From: an uncultured Mediterraneibacter sp.
Lineage (GTDB): Bacteria; Bacillota; Clostridia; Lachnospirales; Lachnospiraceae
Length of the DNA stretch: 64,000 nucleotides
Assembly (NCBI GenBank): GCA_944381935.1
Contig: CALWMN010000007.1
Coordinates: forward strand, 1 to 64,000
Direction of reading: 5' to 3'
This document shows positions 19,771-53,887 of the stretch, piece after piece; positions within the stretch are counted from its first letter, which is position 1; each line of letters begins with the position of its first letter. A program made the translations under genes and the position numbers. The notes under the pieces are model-generated. The model did not search any database, was not told the DNA's origin, and was given only the letters and a program-made list of their open reading frames with translations.

Positions 19771-19817
19771 GACCCGCAGAGATGAGCCTTTTGGCATAAC
19801 CTCTGCGGGTCCTTTTT
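19771..19817. terminator. Intrinsic terminator between ylqH-like and chemoreceptor genes
   Basis: Eleven-base-pair perfect stem GACCCGCAGAG (19771-19781) / CTCTGCGGGTC (19801-19811), a 19-nt loop and CTTTTT after it; AAAA before the stem supplies a T-run for the opposite strand. It separates two convergent units and abuts the chemoreceptor stop codon. Confidence 0.88.
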
Positions 19818-21306
19818 AGTATTTGTCGTTATTCCCGACGAAGGAACCACTGAATGTGGAAGGACTGGAAACAGTTGTGCTAACTGTGTCTGCCGTCGGG
19901 ATAGGGACTGTGTCGGACAGTGTGTCAGACTGATCTGATTTTGCCGGATCCGCCATGTTAACATCCTGCGGCGGTACAACAGAAGAGGCTCTTCTGAATG
20001 TGCGCCCCGTGTCCAGGCGGAGGGAAGCGGCAAGGCGCTCCATTTCCTGTGCGCTTCGGAACTTGAATCCGGCAACAACCTTGTGGAGAAGCACTGCCTG
20101 GGCTGAAAGCTGCTGGCTTGCTGCCGCGCTTTCCTGGGCTGTGGCAGAGTTGGTCTGAATTACGCTGGAAATCTGATCGATTCCGGTCGTTACCTGTGAA
20201 ACTGCCTCTGCCTGTGTCTTGGAAGTGTCGGAGATCGAACTGATCTGATCCACAACCATCTGGGCATTTGCCACGACTTTGTTCATAGATTCCGCTGTCT
20301 CATCCGCAATCGTAATGCCTTTGTCAACTGCGGAGATCGCATTCTGGATCATCGTTGCGGTATCTTTTGCTGCATTCTGGCTCTTCCCTGCCAGATTGCG
20401 GACTTCATCGGCGACAACTGCAAACCCTTTCCCGGCGGAACCTGCCCTTGCGGCTTCTACTGCTGCATTCAGTGCCAGGATGTTCGTCTGGAAAGCAATA
20501 TCCTCTATTGTCTTGATGATCTTATGTATCTGGTTGGAGGTCTCCTTGATCTCAGCCATCGCATTGGTCATCTCGCTCATATGGAGGTTGCTGTCCATCA
20601 TGTCATTTCCGACGCTGCTGGCAAGTGTGCTGGCGGTTTCCGCGTTGTGTGCCGACTCTGTGATCTGGGTGGAGATGTCATTGATCGTGGCAGCCAGTTC
20701 CTGTACAGAACTTGCCTGTTCCGTGGCGCCCTGCGACAATGCCTGAGCGCCGTCTGATACCTGCCCGCTTCCTGAATCTACCTGGGTAGCGGCTTCATTG
20801 ATCTGGCGAAGTGTATCACTTAAGTGAAAACAGAGGAACTGCATGGAAGTAAGGAGCGGACGGAATCCGTTCGCGTACAGCTCCCTGCACCCGCTGGAAA
20901 GGGTGAAATCACCATTCCCTATCCCGGTGAGGATTCGCTCTTCGTCAGAGATGATCTTGTGGAGCACTGTGATAAGCCTTTCTGTGCTTGAGACCAGTTC
21001 CCCGACTTCCCCGACCTTGTCACACTCCGGCATGGGAGAATCCAGATCTCCTTCAGCAAGGGCGTTCAGGCGGGCTGCGCATTCAGCCAGAGGATGGAAG
21101 ACCTGCTTTCCCGTCATGAAAATCAGCAGGATAAGCAGGACAAGCGAGACGGCGAGAAGCAGGATTTCAATTACAGTCACAAATGAAAAGGAAGCGTTTC
21201 CCTGTACGGAAGCGGCGATTCCTGCAACGGCCGCGATCCACGCTGTCAGCGCAAGAAGAAAACAAACAATGTGTGTTTTCAGTTTTAAAGTTGTTTTTTG
21301 ATACAT
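19816..21306 (-). CDS. Methyl-accepting chemotaxis protein without sensor domain
   Basis: A 496-residue chemoreceptor. Two closely spaced membrane helices (about 12-33 and 41-65) leave only about eight residues outside the cell, so there is no room for a ligand-binding domain. A HAMP region (about 66-118) and a spacer precede the long signalling coiled coil, with the CheA/CheW hairpin tip [22 protein letters not shown] near 266-287 intact. The tail after about 410 is Ser/Thr/Pro-rich and lacks a CheR-docking pentapeptide. It probably senses something inside the cell or membrane, or takes its cue from partner receptors. A weak sigma-28 site lies upstream. Confidence 0.93.
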
Positions 21307-21416
21307 GATTCTTACTCCTTCCGTATTTTGTCAAGTAGTCTGGCTATATTTAGCTTATAAATTTAAGGAAGGCTTTCATTTGAAAGATGAAAGTCATACA
21401 TCCCACCATATTAATA

Positions 21417-21443
21417 CTTTCGACAGGATTCATAAAAAATTAA
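21417..21443 (-). promoter_or_regulatory. Candidate sigma-28 type promoter for the minus-strand chemoreceptor
   Basis: Minus strand: TTAA (21443-21440), 15 bp, GTCGAAAG (21424-21417), about 110 bases before the chemoreceptor ATG. The -10 departs from GCCGATA at two positions but the spacing is exact and the same variant occurs before cheA. Confidence 0.5.
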
Positions 21444-21515
21444 GTAAATAAAATGTAAATCTTTCGTATAATCTTTGTATAATTCTAATTTAATGAGTTT
21501 TTTGGCAATCAAATG

Positions 21516-21544
21516 TTGACAATCCTATAGGGGGGGGGTAAAAT
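21516..21544 (+). promoter_or_regulatory. Sigma-A promoter of the 27-kb flgB operon with G9 spacer
   Basis: Consensus -35 TTGACA (21516-21521), 17-bp spacer, -10 TAAAAT (21539-21544; five of six). Positions 21530-21538 of the spacer are nine consecutive G, ending directly at the -10 box. Start of transcription is expected near 21551. No other good promoter was found before flgB, and no terminator is seen until after 48641, so this site should drive flgB through comFB including the sigma-28 gene. Confidence 0.8.
21530..21538 (+). repeat. Homopolymeric G9 tract inside the flgB promoter spacer
   Basis: Nine G in a row fill more than half the -35/-10 spacer. Runs of this length slip during replication; each gain or loss would move the spacer from the optimal 17 bp. 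It is the longest G run noticed in the window and lies outside coding sequence. Confidence 0.9.
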
Positions 21545-21550
21545 GTATAG

Positions 21551-21673
21551 AATAAAAAGCTAAAGCGTCGAAAATCAGTCGAGAAAAGCAAAAACACGTC
21601 ATTTCCTGCTTCAGACGACATGGCTGATGACTGCTTGAATTTTATATATAAATAAGGAAAGGATGTGTCTTGC
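21551..21673 (+). other. Untranslated leader of the flgB operon, possible RNA structure
   Basis: About 120 nt between the predicted start point and flgB. It holds competing short helices: AGCGTCG (21564-21570) with CGAC...GCT (21616-21625), CAGTC (21576-21580) with GACTG (21629-21633), and GTCAT (21598-21602) with ATGAC (21627-21631). The first two would form a pseudoknot and the last two exclude each other. Core sequences of the c-di-GMP-I riboswitch were looked for and not found. The part of the interval left of the promoter (21307-21515) is AT-rich and contains only the divergent chemoreceptor promoter. Confidence 0.35.
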
Positions 21674-22060
21674 ATGGCGATCAATGGAATTTTTGGAAAT
21701 ACAATCAGCATGGCGTCAAAGGCCCTGGACTTTCTCTGGGAGAAAGAATCCGTCATTTCGGATAATCTGGCAAATGTGGAGACTCCCGGATATAAGTCGA
21801 AATATGTCACATTTGAAGAAGAGTTCAGAAGAAGGCTTGAGGGTGCGGATGGGGATGCACAGTCCATGGCGGGAGCCATAAACTCAAGCAGATACCGGGT
21901 ACATACCTCGGAACAGGAATCGACGAGGGCGGATGGAAATAATGTCAATGCGGATGTGGAGATCATGGAACTGACAAGGACATCTCTTCAGTATCAGTAT
22001 CTCCTCAAAAGTGTCAGCAGCGACGTCAGCCGTCTGAATACAGCGATTACAGGGCAGTAA
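21674..22060 (+). CDS. flgB: Flagellar basal-body rod protein FlgB
   Basis: Proximal rod subunit, 128 residues. The N-terminus carries the rod/hook signature VISDNLANVETPGYKSK (about 24-40) and the C-terminal heptad helix that packs in the rod core is present (VEIMELTRTSLQYQYLLKSV). ATG 21674 has a GGAAAGGA ribosome site at suitable distance; an in-frame GTG three codons earlier is less likely. First gene of the main operon. Unusually it is followed by fliE, not flgC. Confidence 0.94.
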   Translation: MAINGIFGNTISMASKALDFLWEKESVISDNLANVETPGYKSKYVTFEEEFRRRLEGADGDAQSMAGAINSSRYRVHTSEQESTRADGNNVNADVEIMELTRTSLQYQYLLKSVSSDVSRLNTAITGQ

Positions 22061-22116
22061 TTCTGAAGTGTGGGGCAGAAGAGAAAAAAGTCTAATATAC
22101 TAAGGAGATGATAGTT

Positions 22117-22425
22117 ATGGAGACGAATTTTATCACACCGATCCAGTTGTGGGGATCGATTGAAGGCATAAACACCGGTTCTGCAGCAGGTACAGCGGCT
22201 TCCGACGGGATGTTCCGCGGCATTTTTGAGAGCGCGGTTCAGGATGTGAGGGATACGGAGAGTAATCTGCAGACGCAGCAGTACCTCTTGGCGACCGGTC
22301 AGATCGATGATCCTCATTCTGTTCAGATTGCGGCGTCGGAGGCTCAGCTTTCGACCAGCATGCTCGTTCAGCTCAGGAACAAGGCGTTGGATTCGTACAA
22401 CGAGCTGATGCGGATCAGTCTGTAA
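22117..22425 (+). CDS. fliE: Flagellar hook-basal body complex protein FliE
   Basis: Links the MS ring to the rod. The 102-residue protein ends in the conserved helices SVQIAASEAQLSTSMLVQLRNKALDSYNELMRI, as in FliE. The ATG at 22117 (METNFITP) is preferred over one at 22108 because AAGGAG at 22102-22107 is nine bases upstream of the former and abuts the latter. Lies between flgB and fliF, where flgC would normally intervene. Confidence 0.93.
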   Translation: METNFITPIQLWGSIEGINTGSAAGTAASDGMFRGIFESAVQDVRDTESNLQTQQYLLATGQIDDPHSVQIAASEAQLSTSMLVQLRNKALDSYNELMRISL

Positions 22426-34380: not shown

Positions 34381-34827
34381 ATGTCATTTTTAAGTACACT
34401 GAACATAAGCGGCAGCGGAATGACTGCACAGCGCCTCCGTCTGGATGTTGTCTCTGACAATATTGCGAATCTTGAGACTACGCGTACAGAAGACGGCGGT
34501 CCCTATCGGAGGAAAATGGTGGTCCTTGAGGCAAAGGAACCTTCCTTCCGGGAAATACTGGACGGGGTGAGAGCGGGACAGGCGCAGAATACAGCGGGTG
34601 ACGGGGTGAGAGCCGTTGCTATTATAGAGGATCAGACAGAGCTGAAGCCTGTATATGACCCGACGCATCCCGATGCGGATGAAGACGGCTATGTGATGAT
34701 GCCGAACATTGATCTGGTGAAGGAGACAGCGGACGCTATGGCGGCCTCTCATGCATATCAGGCGAATATTACGGCATTTAACACCACGAAGCAGATGGCG
34801 CAGAGCGCCCTTGAGGTCGGCCGATAA
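34381..34827 (+). CDS. flgC: Flagellar basal-body rod protein FlgC
   Basis: Proximal rod subunit of 148 residues. It opens with STLNISGSGMTAQRLRLDVV and SDNIANLETTRTEDGGPYRRK, and ends with the rod core helix DLVKETADAMAASHAYQANITAFN, clearly FlgC. It is misplaced relative to the usual flgB-flgC-fliE order: here it lies about 12.3 kb downstream of flgB, between cheY and fliY. GAGGAGG precedes the ATG. It appears intact. Confidence 0.94.
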   Translation: MSFLSTLNISGSGMTAQRLRLDVVSDNIANLETTRTEDGGPYRRKMVVLEAKEPSFREILDGVRAGQAQNTAGDGVRAVAIIEDQTELKPVYDPTHPDADEDGYVMMPNIDLVKETADAMAASHAYQANITAFNTTKQMAQSALEVGR

Positions 34828-41440: not shown

Positions 41441-42244
41441 ATGAGCCACAGCACAGAATCATACGAAAATATGACAAACGAAGAGCTTCTCGAAGCGTAC
41501 AGCCGTACCAGAAGCCTGGAAATGAAGCAGGAACTGGTTCTCCGGTATGTGTATGTAGTGCGGACGATCGCCCTGCAGATGCGGGACATTTATCTGGGGT
41601 TCACTCAGGTCGAGGATATTATCCAGGAAGGAGTGATTACACTGATGAATCTTCTGGACAAATACGACAGTACGAAAAATGCTAAGTTTGAAACTTATCT
41701 TTCGCGCAGGATGCGAGGCCTGATTATAGACATTGCACGGAAACAGGAATGGGGGTCCCGCAACGTGCGCAAGAACATGAGGGAGATTGAGAATGCCGTG
41801 GCAGAATTGACGGTTAAGACCGGGAAGACTCCTGATTCCAGAGCGGTAGCGCAGCATCTCGGGATTCCCTATGAAAAGTATCAGGAAATCATTGGCAAGA
41901 ACAACCTACTCTCCATAGCTTCCCTGGATACGATACTGGAAGAGGCGCAGGAAAAAAAGAGGGCGGCGCAGGTTCCGTCAGCAGAGGAGCGACAGCAGCC
42001 GGAGGAATCATATCTGCGCAAGGAACTCTCCGAAGTTCTTGAGAAAGGAATTGACAGCCTCAAGGAGAAAGAGAAGATTATTATTTCCCTCTATTATGTC
42101 GAAGAATTAAATATGAGGGAGATTGCCCGGGTGCTGGAGGTCAGTGAGCCCCGTGTCTCACAGCTCCATGCCGGAGCAATCAAGAAATTGAAAGAATATA
42201 TTGAACGGGAATTTGAGATGACTCCCGGTCAAAAGAAAGGATGA
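41441..42244 (+). CDS. fliA: Flagellar sigma factor sigma-28 (FliA/SigD)
   Basis: RNA polymerase sigma factor for late flagellar and chemotaxis genes, 267 residues. Region 2 (about 25-95) has YVYVVRTIALQMR and EDIIQEGVITLMNLLDKYD; region 3 (about 105-150) and region 4 (about 200-260, with a helix-turn-helix MREIARVLEVSEPRVSQLH) are complete. Its antagonist FlgM is encoded at 53964. Being inside the flgB operon, its level should follow the G-tract promoter at 21516. Confidence 0.94.
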   Translation: MSHSTESYENMTNEELLEAYSRTRSLEMKQELVLRYVYVVRTIALQMRDIYLGFTQVEDIIQEGVITLMNLLDKYDSTKNAKFETYLSRRMRGLIIDIARKQEWGSRNVRKNMREIENAVAELTVKTGKTPDSRAVAQHLGIPYEKYQEIIGKNNLLSIASLDTILEEAQEKKRAAQVPSAEERQQPEESYLRKELSEVLEKGIDSLKEKEKIIISLYYVEELNMREIARVLEVSEPRVSQLHAGAIKKLKEYIEREFEMTPGQKKG

Positions 42245-51940: not shown

Positions 51941-51999
51941 GACCGGAAACGCAACACTTACTTTTCACAGAAAAAGAAGAGGTGCGCTTCCGGTCTGTT
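51941..51999 (+). terminator. Possible terminator/attenuator after fliT-like gene
   Basis: GACCGGAA (51941-51948) pairs with TTCCGGTC (51988-51995), extended by CGCA/TGCG next to it, with a large loop, and is followed by TGTTTT. The loop is long for an efficient terminator, so partial read-through into the ABC-type ATPase gene is likely. Confidence 0.45.
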
Positions 52000-52017
52000 T
52001 TGATTGAGAGGAAATAT

Positions 52018-52812
52018 ATGGAAGCAGTCATTTTTGAAAATGTGAATAAAGTATTTGCACGGGGCGAGGTGGCAGCGGAAGATGTGTCCTTCCGTATCAG
52101 AAAGGGAGAGTTCGTCTTTGTCATCGGACGCAGCGGGGCGGGCAAGAGCACGCTCCTTCGGCTGATGAGTGCGCAGGAGAGTGCGACCTCGGGGCGGATC
52201 TGGATAAACGGGCAGGAACTGGAGAAGATCCAGGGGAAGGAGATGCCCTATTTCCGAAGGCAGATCGGGGTGATGCAGTCGGACCTCGGCCTGTTGGAAG
52301 ACCGGACCCTGTTCGACAATGTATATCTTCCTGTCATTGCGACAGAGCAGCAGGGGCGGAAGGGAAGAAGGCGGGTAGAGGGACTCCTCAGGGCAATGGG
52401 GATCCTTGACCGCGCCCGCTTCTATCCGAGGGAGGTCTCAATGGGAGAGGCGGCGCGGGCGCTCCTGGCGCGGGCTATGGTGACGGGACCGTCGATCCTG
52501 ATTGCAGATGAGCCGACTGCCAATCTTGATCCGGACGCATCATGGGACGTGATGTGTCTCCTGGCGGAACTGAACCGCCAGGGTGTCACTGTAGTGGTGG
52601 CAAGCCACAATCAGGAGCTGGTCTCCATTATGCGCAGACGGGTGATTACACTCTCGGCAGGACGGCTCGTGGCAGATGAAAAGAATGCCGTCTACAATGT
52701 ACGGGCGGCAGATGCCATGGAAGAAAGAAGGGTATTGCATGAGCGCGAACATAGAAAGCAGAATGGAACGCTATCTGATCAATCTGATAGCCGAGACAGT
52801 CAATCAGGGTGA
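52018..52812 (+). CDS. FtsE-like ABC ATPase, no permease partner, altered signature motif
   Basis: A 264-residue ABC ATP-binding protein similar in layout to FtsE. Walker A GRSGAGKST (37-45), Q-loop Gln87, Walker B ILIADEPT (Asp164, Glu165) and H-loop His197 are intact, but the ABC signature reads EVSMGEAAR where family members have LSGGEQQR, so the LSGGQ core is replaced by SMGEA. No FtsX-like permease adjoins. ATG 52018 has GAGAGG upstream. The last 74 bp overlap the next gene in another frame. Its position between fliT-like and flgM suggests a motility or envelope role, not shown. Confidence 0.85.
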   Translation: MEAVIFENVNKVFARGEVAAEDVSFRIRKGEFVFVIGRSGAGKSTLLRLMSAQESATSGRIWINGQELEKIQGKEMPYFRRQIGVMQSDLGLLEDRTLFDNVYLPVIATEQQGRKGRRRVEGLLRAMGILDRARFYPREVSMGEAARALLARAMVTGPSILIADEPTANLDPDASWDVMCLLAELNRQGVTVVVASHNQELVSIMRRRVITLSAGRLVADEKNAVYNVRAADAMEERRVLHEREHRKQNGTLSDQSDSRDSQSG

Positions 52813-53887
52813 ATCCGTTGAAACCAGATGGAAACCCTCATGGGGGTGGATTTATAAGATGTCGGATTACCACCATGTGGCGAATCTTGTCTATTACAAA
52901 ATTATGTGGTCGGATGATGTCCATGTTCTGAAATGGAAGGAACGGTTTGAGACAAGATACCGGGATGCAATGCGGCTGCAGGAAAGGAACCGCATCCTGA
53001 GAGGGCAGCTTGAGGCTGAGCTTGAGAAGAGAGAGATACATGCTTTCCTTGCAGGCGAATCCCTGATACTGGAATACTATCAGAGACCGGAGATGAGGAC
53101 ACCGGAGCCAATTGAGCTGCTTGTGCAGAAGAAAAAATATGACAGTGCCCGAAGACTTCTTGTATCCATGGGATTTGAAGAGATCCTGGATAAACAGGGG
53201 AAGAGGACGGGGCTGTTCGCCCGGATACCGGATCAGAAGATCAGGCTCTACGATGAGCTCCCATTCACCGGAAAAAAGATTAAGGCGTGGTTTCATGAAC
53301 TGCCCGTAGAACTCCCGAAAGAGGAGGGGTACGATTATATACACTGTATGAATGAGGAGACCATGTATATCTACCTGGTCTGCAGGCTGGCTGACAGGTT
53401 TGCCAGGGGGCAGATGGAGATACGGGATATGGTGGATCTCTGGCTGTTCCTCTCAAGGGAGGGTTCTCAACTGAAGTGGAAGGAAATCAAAGAAGAGCTG
53501 GAGAGCCTGGAGCTTGATACCTTCGGAGAATACATCGTGAAGCTTGCCGGAAAATGGTTTGGCAATATGTATTTCCATGAGGATAATGATATGCTCAATG
53601 ATATACAGACATATATTATCTCAAAGGGGGAGCACGGCAGACGCGAGAGCGGGGATGTGCTCCCGTTGATCACAAGTGTGGTGGACAGCTATCACAGAGA
53701 TCTTAAGAAGGAAGAGAAGAAAAGAATCCGCCAGTGGCGTTTCCCTTCCATTGATTACATGGAGGTTTCTTTTCCGCGGTTGAAAAAATGGCCCATGTTC
53801 CTTCCATTCTGCTGGATCATAAGACTGATGAGAAACAGGAAATATACAAAAAAAAGAGAGGCAGAAACACAGGAAAGCGGAGAATAA
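52739..53887 (+). CDS. Nucleotidyltransferase-fold protein, catalytic motif degenerate
   Basis: A 382-residue soluble protein resembling the NTP_transf_5 nucleotidyltransferases found near cell-surface polysaccharide genes. The core segment, at about 100-130, reads HAFLAGESLILEYY then RTPEPIELLV; active members have KG..L and R...DxDLLV, so the first metal-binding Asp is Pro and the second Glu. It is therefore probably inactive as a transferase. The frame is open from 52676, but ATG 52739 has AGAAGGG six bases upstream. Translationally overlaps the ABC-type ATPase, implying joint production. Function unknown. Confidence 0.7.
   Translation: MSANIESRMERYLINLIAETVNQGESVETRWKPSWGWIYKMSDYHHVANLVYYKIMWSDDVHVLKWKERFETRYRDAMRLQERNRILRGQLEAELEKREIHAFLAGESLILEYYQRPEMRTPEPIELLVQKKKYDSARRLLVSMGFEEILDKQGKRTGLFARIPDQKIRLYDELPFTGKKIKAWFHELPVELPKEEGYDYIHCMNEETMYIYLVCRLADRFARGQMEIRDMVDLWLFLSREGSQLKWKEIKEELESLELDTFGEYIVKLAGKWFGNMYFHEDNDMLNDIQTYIISKGEHGRRESGDVLPLITSVVDSYHRDLKKEEKKRIRQWRFPSIDYMEVSFPRLKKWPMFLPFCWIIRLMRNRKYTKKREAETQESGE

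Follow-up and report, generated by a model that had tools for sequence, protein, structure and literature searches.

The 64,000-nucleotide stretch of DNA analysed here (the window) carries a long run of flagellar genes preceded by a promoter-like sequence whose spacer contains nine consecutive G. The run (21665–48641) consists of 33 ORFs on the + strand, none separated from the next by more than 100 bases, and those ORFs that were scanned are mostly flagellar and chemotaxis genes. Its first gene, flgB (21674–22060, +), matches NCBIfam TIGR01396 with 97.3 bits against a cutoff of 59.05. Other NCBIfam matches within the run are FliE, a FliI-type ATPase, FlgC, FliP, and a FliA/WhiG-type sigma factor (sigma-28; 41441–42244, +; TIGR02479, 212 bits, cutoff 189.6), and Pfam adds FliF, FliM, a FliR/export family member, FlhA (FHIPEP), CheC, and CheD. 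The first-pass annotation had described a 33-gene flgB operon. The 33 ORFs, with the sigma-28 gene among them, are indeed present on the + strand, and we infer from their layout that they form one operon read as a single transcript. A chemotaxis receptor gene lies upstream of the promoter on the opposite strand (19816–21306, −). The gene order has its own peculiarities: fliE comes after flgB, and flgC (34381–34827) is 12 kb away rather than adjacent. A segment inside the flagellar cluster (51982–53887) holds an ORF that by eye resembles an ATP-binding protein and a nucleotidyltransferase-like ORF (PF14907).

The sequence proposed to drive this run lies at 21516–21544 on the + strand. It is the top promoter-like match in the interval 21300–22200, agreeing with the consensus hexamers at 11 of 12 bases, and comprises a −35 hexamer TTGACA (21516–21521), a 17-bp spacer (21522–21538), and a −10 hexamer TAAAAT (21539–21544). 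A leader (21545–21673) follows, placing the flgB start ∼130 bases downstream of the promoter. The spacer reads ATCCTATA and then nine G; this G9 homopolymer (21530–21538) stands directly against the −10 hexamer and is the tract proposed to slip. Both the TTGACA-17-TAAAAT promoter and the nine G abutting its −10 hexamer had been claimed at first reading and are borne out. The sequence at 21516–21544 is best explained as the principal promoter, of sigma-A type, for the flagellar genes of the run. It also belongs by definition to a wider class of poly-G-spacer promoters, described below, which combine TTGACA, at least seven G, and TANNAT in spacer register.

Nine G in a row within 64 kb would be unremarkable by themselves: dinucleotide shuffles of the window contain such a run in 44 of 100 cases (mean 0.81). 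Across the whole genome (3.04 Mb, 54 contigs), by comparison, long G-runs are rare: G/C runs of at least nine number four and those of at least eight number nine, against genome-wide expectations of ∼29 and ∼106 from a first-order Markov model fitted to the window. The G9 before flgB falls precisely within a consensus spacer. Nor are poly-G spacers a general habit of this genome. Just one of its 23 TTGACA-N15-19-TAAAAT sites contains a run of at least seven G (the reversed pattern has six matches), and a search relaxed to G5 gave four sites against two reversed matches, with the flgB site alone reaching seven G. The variable-G-number form of the promoter was also searched for among viral contigs and had no match there.

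The flgB promoter was compared with those of close relatives. FlgB was found at an E-value of 1e-20 or better in eight of the 58 genomes of the genus; the nearest named relatives that have it are bins from metagenomes, under the labels Mediterraneibacter, Ruminococcus, Dorea, and uncultured Eubacteriales bacterium, which makes a Mediterraneibacter-like Lachnospiraceae the likeliest source of the window. Nine species have a readable flgB promoter, namely that of the window, L053, L054, L055, L057, L058, L059, and L012, all within the genus, and L056. Pairs of loci with equal coordinates in two collections (L010/L053, L066/L054, L011/L055, L067/L057, L068/L058, and L069/L059) were each counted once. 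All nine promoters have 17 bp between the boxes; the scoring scheme favours this distance, but the boxes are nevertheless recognisable by eye at the same place. The spacers contain G9 in the window and L053, G7 in mid-spacer in L058, and G5 against the −10 hexamer in L056 and L012, where the runs are interrupted or shorter (GGAGGGGG and GGGGAGGGGG, respectively). The remaining four spacers (L054, L055, L057, and L059) do without any run of at least five G, and the tract is accordingly dispensable for promoter function. The promoters of the window and the sister species L053 are identical at 28 of 29 bases, G9 included, while the upstream regions share 95 of 150 bases with a further 81 gap columns, the leaders 77 of 128 aligned bases (60–63% for the flanks overall), and the flgB genes 313 of 387 bases. 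The promoter has thus been retained amid flanks that have drifted, spacer and G9 as well as boxes.

Promoters of the same build recur in the genus and the family. The searches covered poly-G spacers. In the genus, the pattern TTGACA-N2-12-G7-N0-8-TANNAT returned 16 rows. These represent 15 distinct sites, spread over 11 of the 58 genomes; the reversed pattern had no match. A slightly narrower pattern matched in 50 of 397 genomes of the family, about one in eight, with one reversed match. After overlapping double readings and a repeat from the window's own genome had been dropped, the pooled class comprised 83 distinct sites. The G-run stands directly against the −10 hexamer in 63 of these, with tracts of 7–11 or 14 G, and other bases intervene in the other 20.

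The genes downstream of these promoters often appear to encode secreted proteins. A signal-peptide-like first gene was called at 28 of 42 class loci, some of them mutually homologous, compared with four of 26 ordinary TTGACA/TATAAT promoters (Fisher p = 4.6e-5). The call is a home-made hydrophobicity rule that asks for an N-terminus resembling a signal peptide and allows no more than one additional hydrophobic segment. It was applied to the 43 of 83 sites for which the locus was fetched, one of which lacks an ORF of 100 aa; the controls began as 30 loci, taken from eight genomes in which poly-G sites occur as well; of these loci, L199 and three lacking a 100-aa ORF were removed. Two class loci that the rule scored negative (L152 and L153) have shorter in-frame ORFs whose beginnings look signal-peptide-like by eye. 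In a Pfam scan of 20 downstream proteins, ten had no match. The matches above the curated cut-off include BspA-type leucine-rich repeats (L155), LRR (L144), Ig-like domains of the Big_2/Big_3 kind (L146 and L156, the former also with CAP), a choline-binding repeat (L166), a dockerin (L163), and an Rrf2 regulator (L148). Not every first gene fits this pattern: flgB itself (the window and L147) and, by eye, the gene of a hydantoinase-like protein (L149) do not, nor do other ORFs that lack a signal peptide. The flgB promoter of the window thus departs from the prevailing tendency, FlgB being a flagellar rod protein. As a separate observation, the sequence GGATA occurs within 22 bases after the −10 hexamer in eight of 43 poly-G promoters (L140–L144, L151, L153, and L165, several of them homologous) and in none of 29 controls (p = 0.018).

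Spacer lengths in the class are scattered. Among abutting sites with spacers of 14–21 bp, seven of 59 have a 17-bp spacer; the corresponding figure for the control rows is 72 of 147 (p = 2.7e-7). This comparison leaves out the 20 non-abutting sites and four abutting sites with spacers under 14 bp. The class counts are seven at 17, 13 at 18, 18 at 19, and seven at 20 bp, whereas ordinary promoters peak at 17 bp. The control rows are the 147 listed of 368 matches, drawn from genomes G090, G123, and part of G033; three of them are poly-G sites themselves, and some must be chance matches since the reversed control totals 49. The controls demand TATAAT where the class allows TANNAT; repeating the test with TATAAT alone gave two of 19 at 17 bp (p = 0.0012). 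This scatter fits what slippage would predict. The mode at 18–19 bp could reflect a longer optimum for G-rich spacers, instead of a class in which most promoters are OFF.

Tract length also differs between some homologous promoters. L141 and L142 have identical sequence over the ten bases that precede the tract but carry different numbers of G, AAAATATTCC-G9 (19 bp) and AAAATATTCC-G11 (21 bp), respectively; their downstream proteins belong to one secreted protein family and are 57% identical. Only six bases separate the start of the L142 locus from the end of its contig. In genome G161, two sites have G7 and G8 and one other base difference, and two in G159 differ in the G-run and at two bases. 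Similar sites within a genome can also have equal tracts, as in G012 (G11 and G11), G157 (G10 and G10), and G293 (G7 three times).

Tracts near flgB are found in other genera as well, in a different setting. In a sample of 26 other genera drawn regardless of tracts, two have a run of at least eight G in the 450 bases upstream of flgB (G10 in L076 and G13 in L087). A background from ten genomes (0.0006 per region and strand) gives P ≈ 1e-4 when only the coding strand is considered, and roughly four times that, by estimate, for either strand. The genera of genomes G200 and G094 were followed up and yielded tracts of 12, 11, 8, and 8 G in four of nine further species; they had been chosen because a tract was present, so these counts stand outside the chance estimate. 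L106, with a weaker FlgB match, was left out of the tract counts. In all eight flgB-upstream tracts, the two from the genus included, the G lie on the coding strand. By eye, L100 has G12 between TAGACA and TAAAAA at 19 bp, L076 has G10 against TAAAAT with no recognisable −35 hexamer, the runs in G200, G389, G094, G396, and G398 lie outside a recognisable full spacer, and G388 has a weak one. Since most sit outside a clear spacer, the tracts of other genera may act differently. The loci with runs of 8–13 G upstream of flgB are L087, L100, L105, L076, L107, and L108. L100, L101, and L103 also share a similar-looking ORF of ∼50 codons between the promoter-like site and flgB (by eye).

The closest known counterpart is porA of Neisseria meningitidis, where, according to the relevant passages of PMC7864442 and PMC2791445, a poly-G tract between −35 and −10 sets their distance around 17 bp by its length. 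The flgB promoter at 21516–21544 likewise has a pure G-run in its spacer: the homopolymer lies between the hexamers, and they are 17 bp apart. By analogy, each slip would change promoter strength. The two systems differ in that variation and its effect on expression have been measured for porA and are inferred for the flgB promoter, and in that porA controls one porin whereas the G9 tract precedes the flagellar gene run of a gut Lachnospiraceae. The first-pass annotation had drawn the analogy to both porA and opc. Its porA half holds anatomically; for opc, passages in PMC2791445 put the poly-C tract between the boxes and passages in PMC7864442 put it over −35, and we regard porA as the cleaner analogue. 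Another spacer poly-G, in tp0126 of Treponema pallidum, is described in part of PMC7864442, where transcription reportedly varies with the full −35/−10 distance; it resembles the flgB promoter in this respect and differs in serving a single outer-membrane protein gene. Homopolymer slippage is known to control flagella in Bacillus subtilis swrA (an A-run) and Campylobacter coli flhA (a T-run), as excerpts of PMC3874003 and PMC2831843 report, but there it shifts the reading frame of a coding sequence, whereas a change in promoter spacing is proposed at flgB. In Clostridia, motility-linked phase variation is described for the invertible promoters of Clostridioides difficile pdcB and pdcC in a portion of PMC11868660. 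The passages of this 2025 review that were read hold no prior description of poly-G promoter phase variation in Lachnospiraceae. The same subject appeared in no title or abstract start among the listed matches of full-text searches confined to open-licence papers.

We propose that replication slippage would add or remove G in the G9 tract, with each gained or lost base moving the −35/−10 distance from 17 to 16, 18, or 19 bp (G8 would give 16 bp, G10 18 bp). Off-17 spacing would weaken binding of RNA polymerase and leave a minority of cells with less of the FlgB-to-FliA transcript, and consequently with less sigma-28 and fewer flagella. With FliA encoded among these genes, weakening the promoter would be expected to lower the late flagellar genes too. 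The individual steps, slippage within a population, control of expression by spacing, and variable motility as the outcome, are all putative at this promoter.

Phase variation of the flagellar promoter nonetheless appears likely. The suggestion of a phase-variation or tuning switch, made at first reading, gains from the comparison, since the recurrence of the class, its bias towards secreted proteins, the scatter of its spacers, and the differences in G number favour a slippage-tuned class. It loses in that both flagellar G9 promoters stand at 17 bp and that four of nine relatives have no run of at least five G; the equal tracts at several paralogous sites also speak against it, as does flgB not being a gene for a secreted antigen, in which it differs from most of the judged class. 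Without these two promoters, five of 57 class sites are at 17 bp, and the probability that both flagellar promoters would be at 17 is ∼0.008 (5/57 squared), a figure that assumes an independence that sister species violate. Both being at 17 is thus unlikely under the drift seen in the class, which points to a held length or to slow slippage. The 17-bp spacing indicates either that the sequenced majority is ON or that the length is held. Because the sequenced clones are at the presumed ON length, the G9 tract is most likely a default-ON, occasionally-down tuner. We consider it probable, from sequence comparison, that 21516–21544 is a promoter prone to slippage yet kept close to its ON length, and that it is one of a class of poly-G-spacer promoters that extends across the Lachnospiraceae and often drives secreted proteins.

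The strongest competitor supposes that the spacer is fixed: the sequence would be an ordinary sigma-A promoter in which the G-run is preserved because it shapes the DNA or binds a regulator, with no meaningful slippage. The constant 17 bp in nine of nine close relatives and the single base that separates the spacers of the window and L053 speak for it, and the interrupted or shorter runs of L056 and L012 would fit selection for G-richness better than for a perfect homopolymer. It accounts poorly for class runs of 7–14 G with scattered spacer lengths, for unequal G numbers at some homologous promoters, and for the four of nine relatives that manage without a G-run, and we judge it possible but rather unlikely. 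A chance homopolymer in an ordinary promoter, inherited by two sister species, is very improbable. The shuffles do produce G9 in 64 kb often enough, but the genome has only four G/C runs of at least nine, the architecture recurs in the genus and the family where reversed matches number zero and one, and the G9 promoter is conserved amid diverged flanks. As a sole explanation, chance was rejected on the genome-wide rarity of such runs together with the recurrence of the class.

Two other proposals place control outside the G-run. Motifs flanking the promoter, TTCGACA upstream (21419–21425; TGTCGAA on the − strand) and CGTCGAA downstream of the predicted start (21566–21572, +; one mismatch to TGTCGAA), resemble what we take to be the Spo0A box, so that sporulation control may overlap the putative flagellar promoter. 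If flagellar control were mainly through Spo0A, the G-run would be secondary. The upstream motif is exact in eight of nine species and differs at a single base in L012; TGTCGAA, allowing for one mismatch, occurs 37–54 bases after the start of the −35 hexamer in eight of nine, L056 being the exception. The motif is short, however, the species share common ancestry, and Spo0A control would be compatible with slippage rather than exclusive of it; as the main explanation we think it very improbable. Still less credible is an invertible promoter of the C. difficile flagellar type. Invertible promoters are known for flagella in Clostridia, the C. difficile flg switch being one, and this precedent is what recommends the idea. 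That switch works by site-specific inversion, and the flgB promoter lacks suitable repeats: of the two inverted-repeat pairs found here, the longer measures 17 nt, is AT-rich, and has 76% complementarity. With no good pair around the promoter, inversion was rejected.

If the reading of a slippage-prone promoter held near ON is correct, a switch acting in cis would generate mixed motile and non-motile populations with no dedicated regulator. Flagellin from bacteria of the gut signals strongly to the immune system. The class also points to particular loci, in roughly one of every eight sampled genomes (50 of 397), whose expression would be predicted to vary with G number. We conjecture, at slightly better than even odds, that family-wide poly-G contingency promoters set surface proteins randomly and independently of one another, and in two species the flagellar cascade as well, amounting to a porA-type phasome in gut commensals.

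Long G-runs were also noticed within genes outside the window. A G8 in a DNA-methyltransferase-like gene (L049:1501–1508; G000:C7:107060–107067) coincides with a break in the reading frame; the gene apparently has a second frame break (by eye), and it was set aside as support for a phasevarion. At G000:C7:87019–88065 (L046 and L047), two neighbouring methyltransferase-like genes contain in-frame runs of G8 and G9 and adjoin DNA-methyltransferase-like and HAD-like genes (names by eye); these two runs are possible coding contingency loci.
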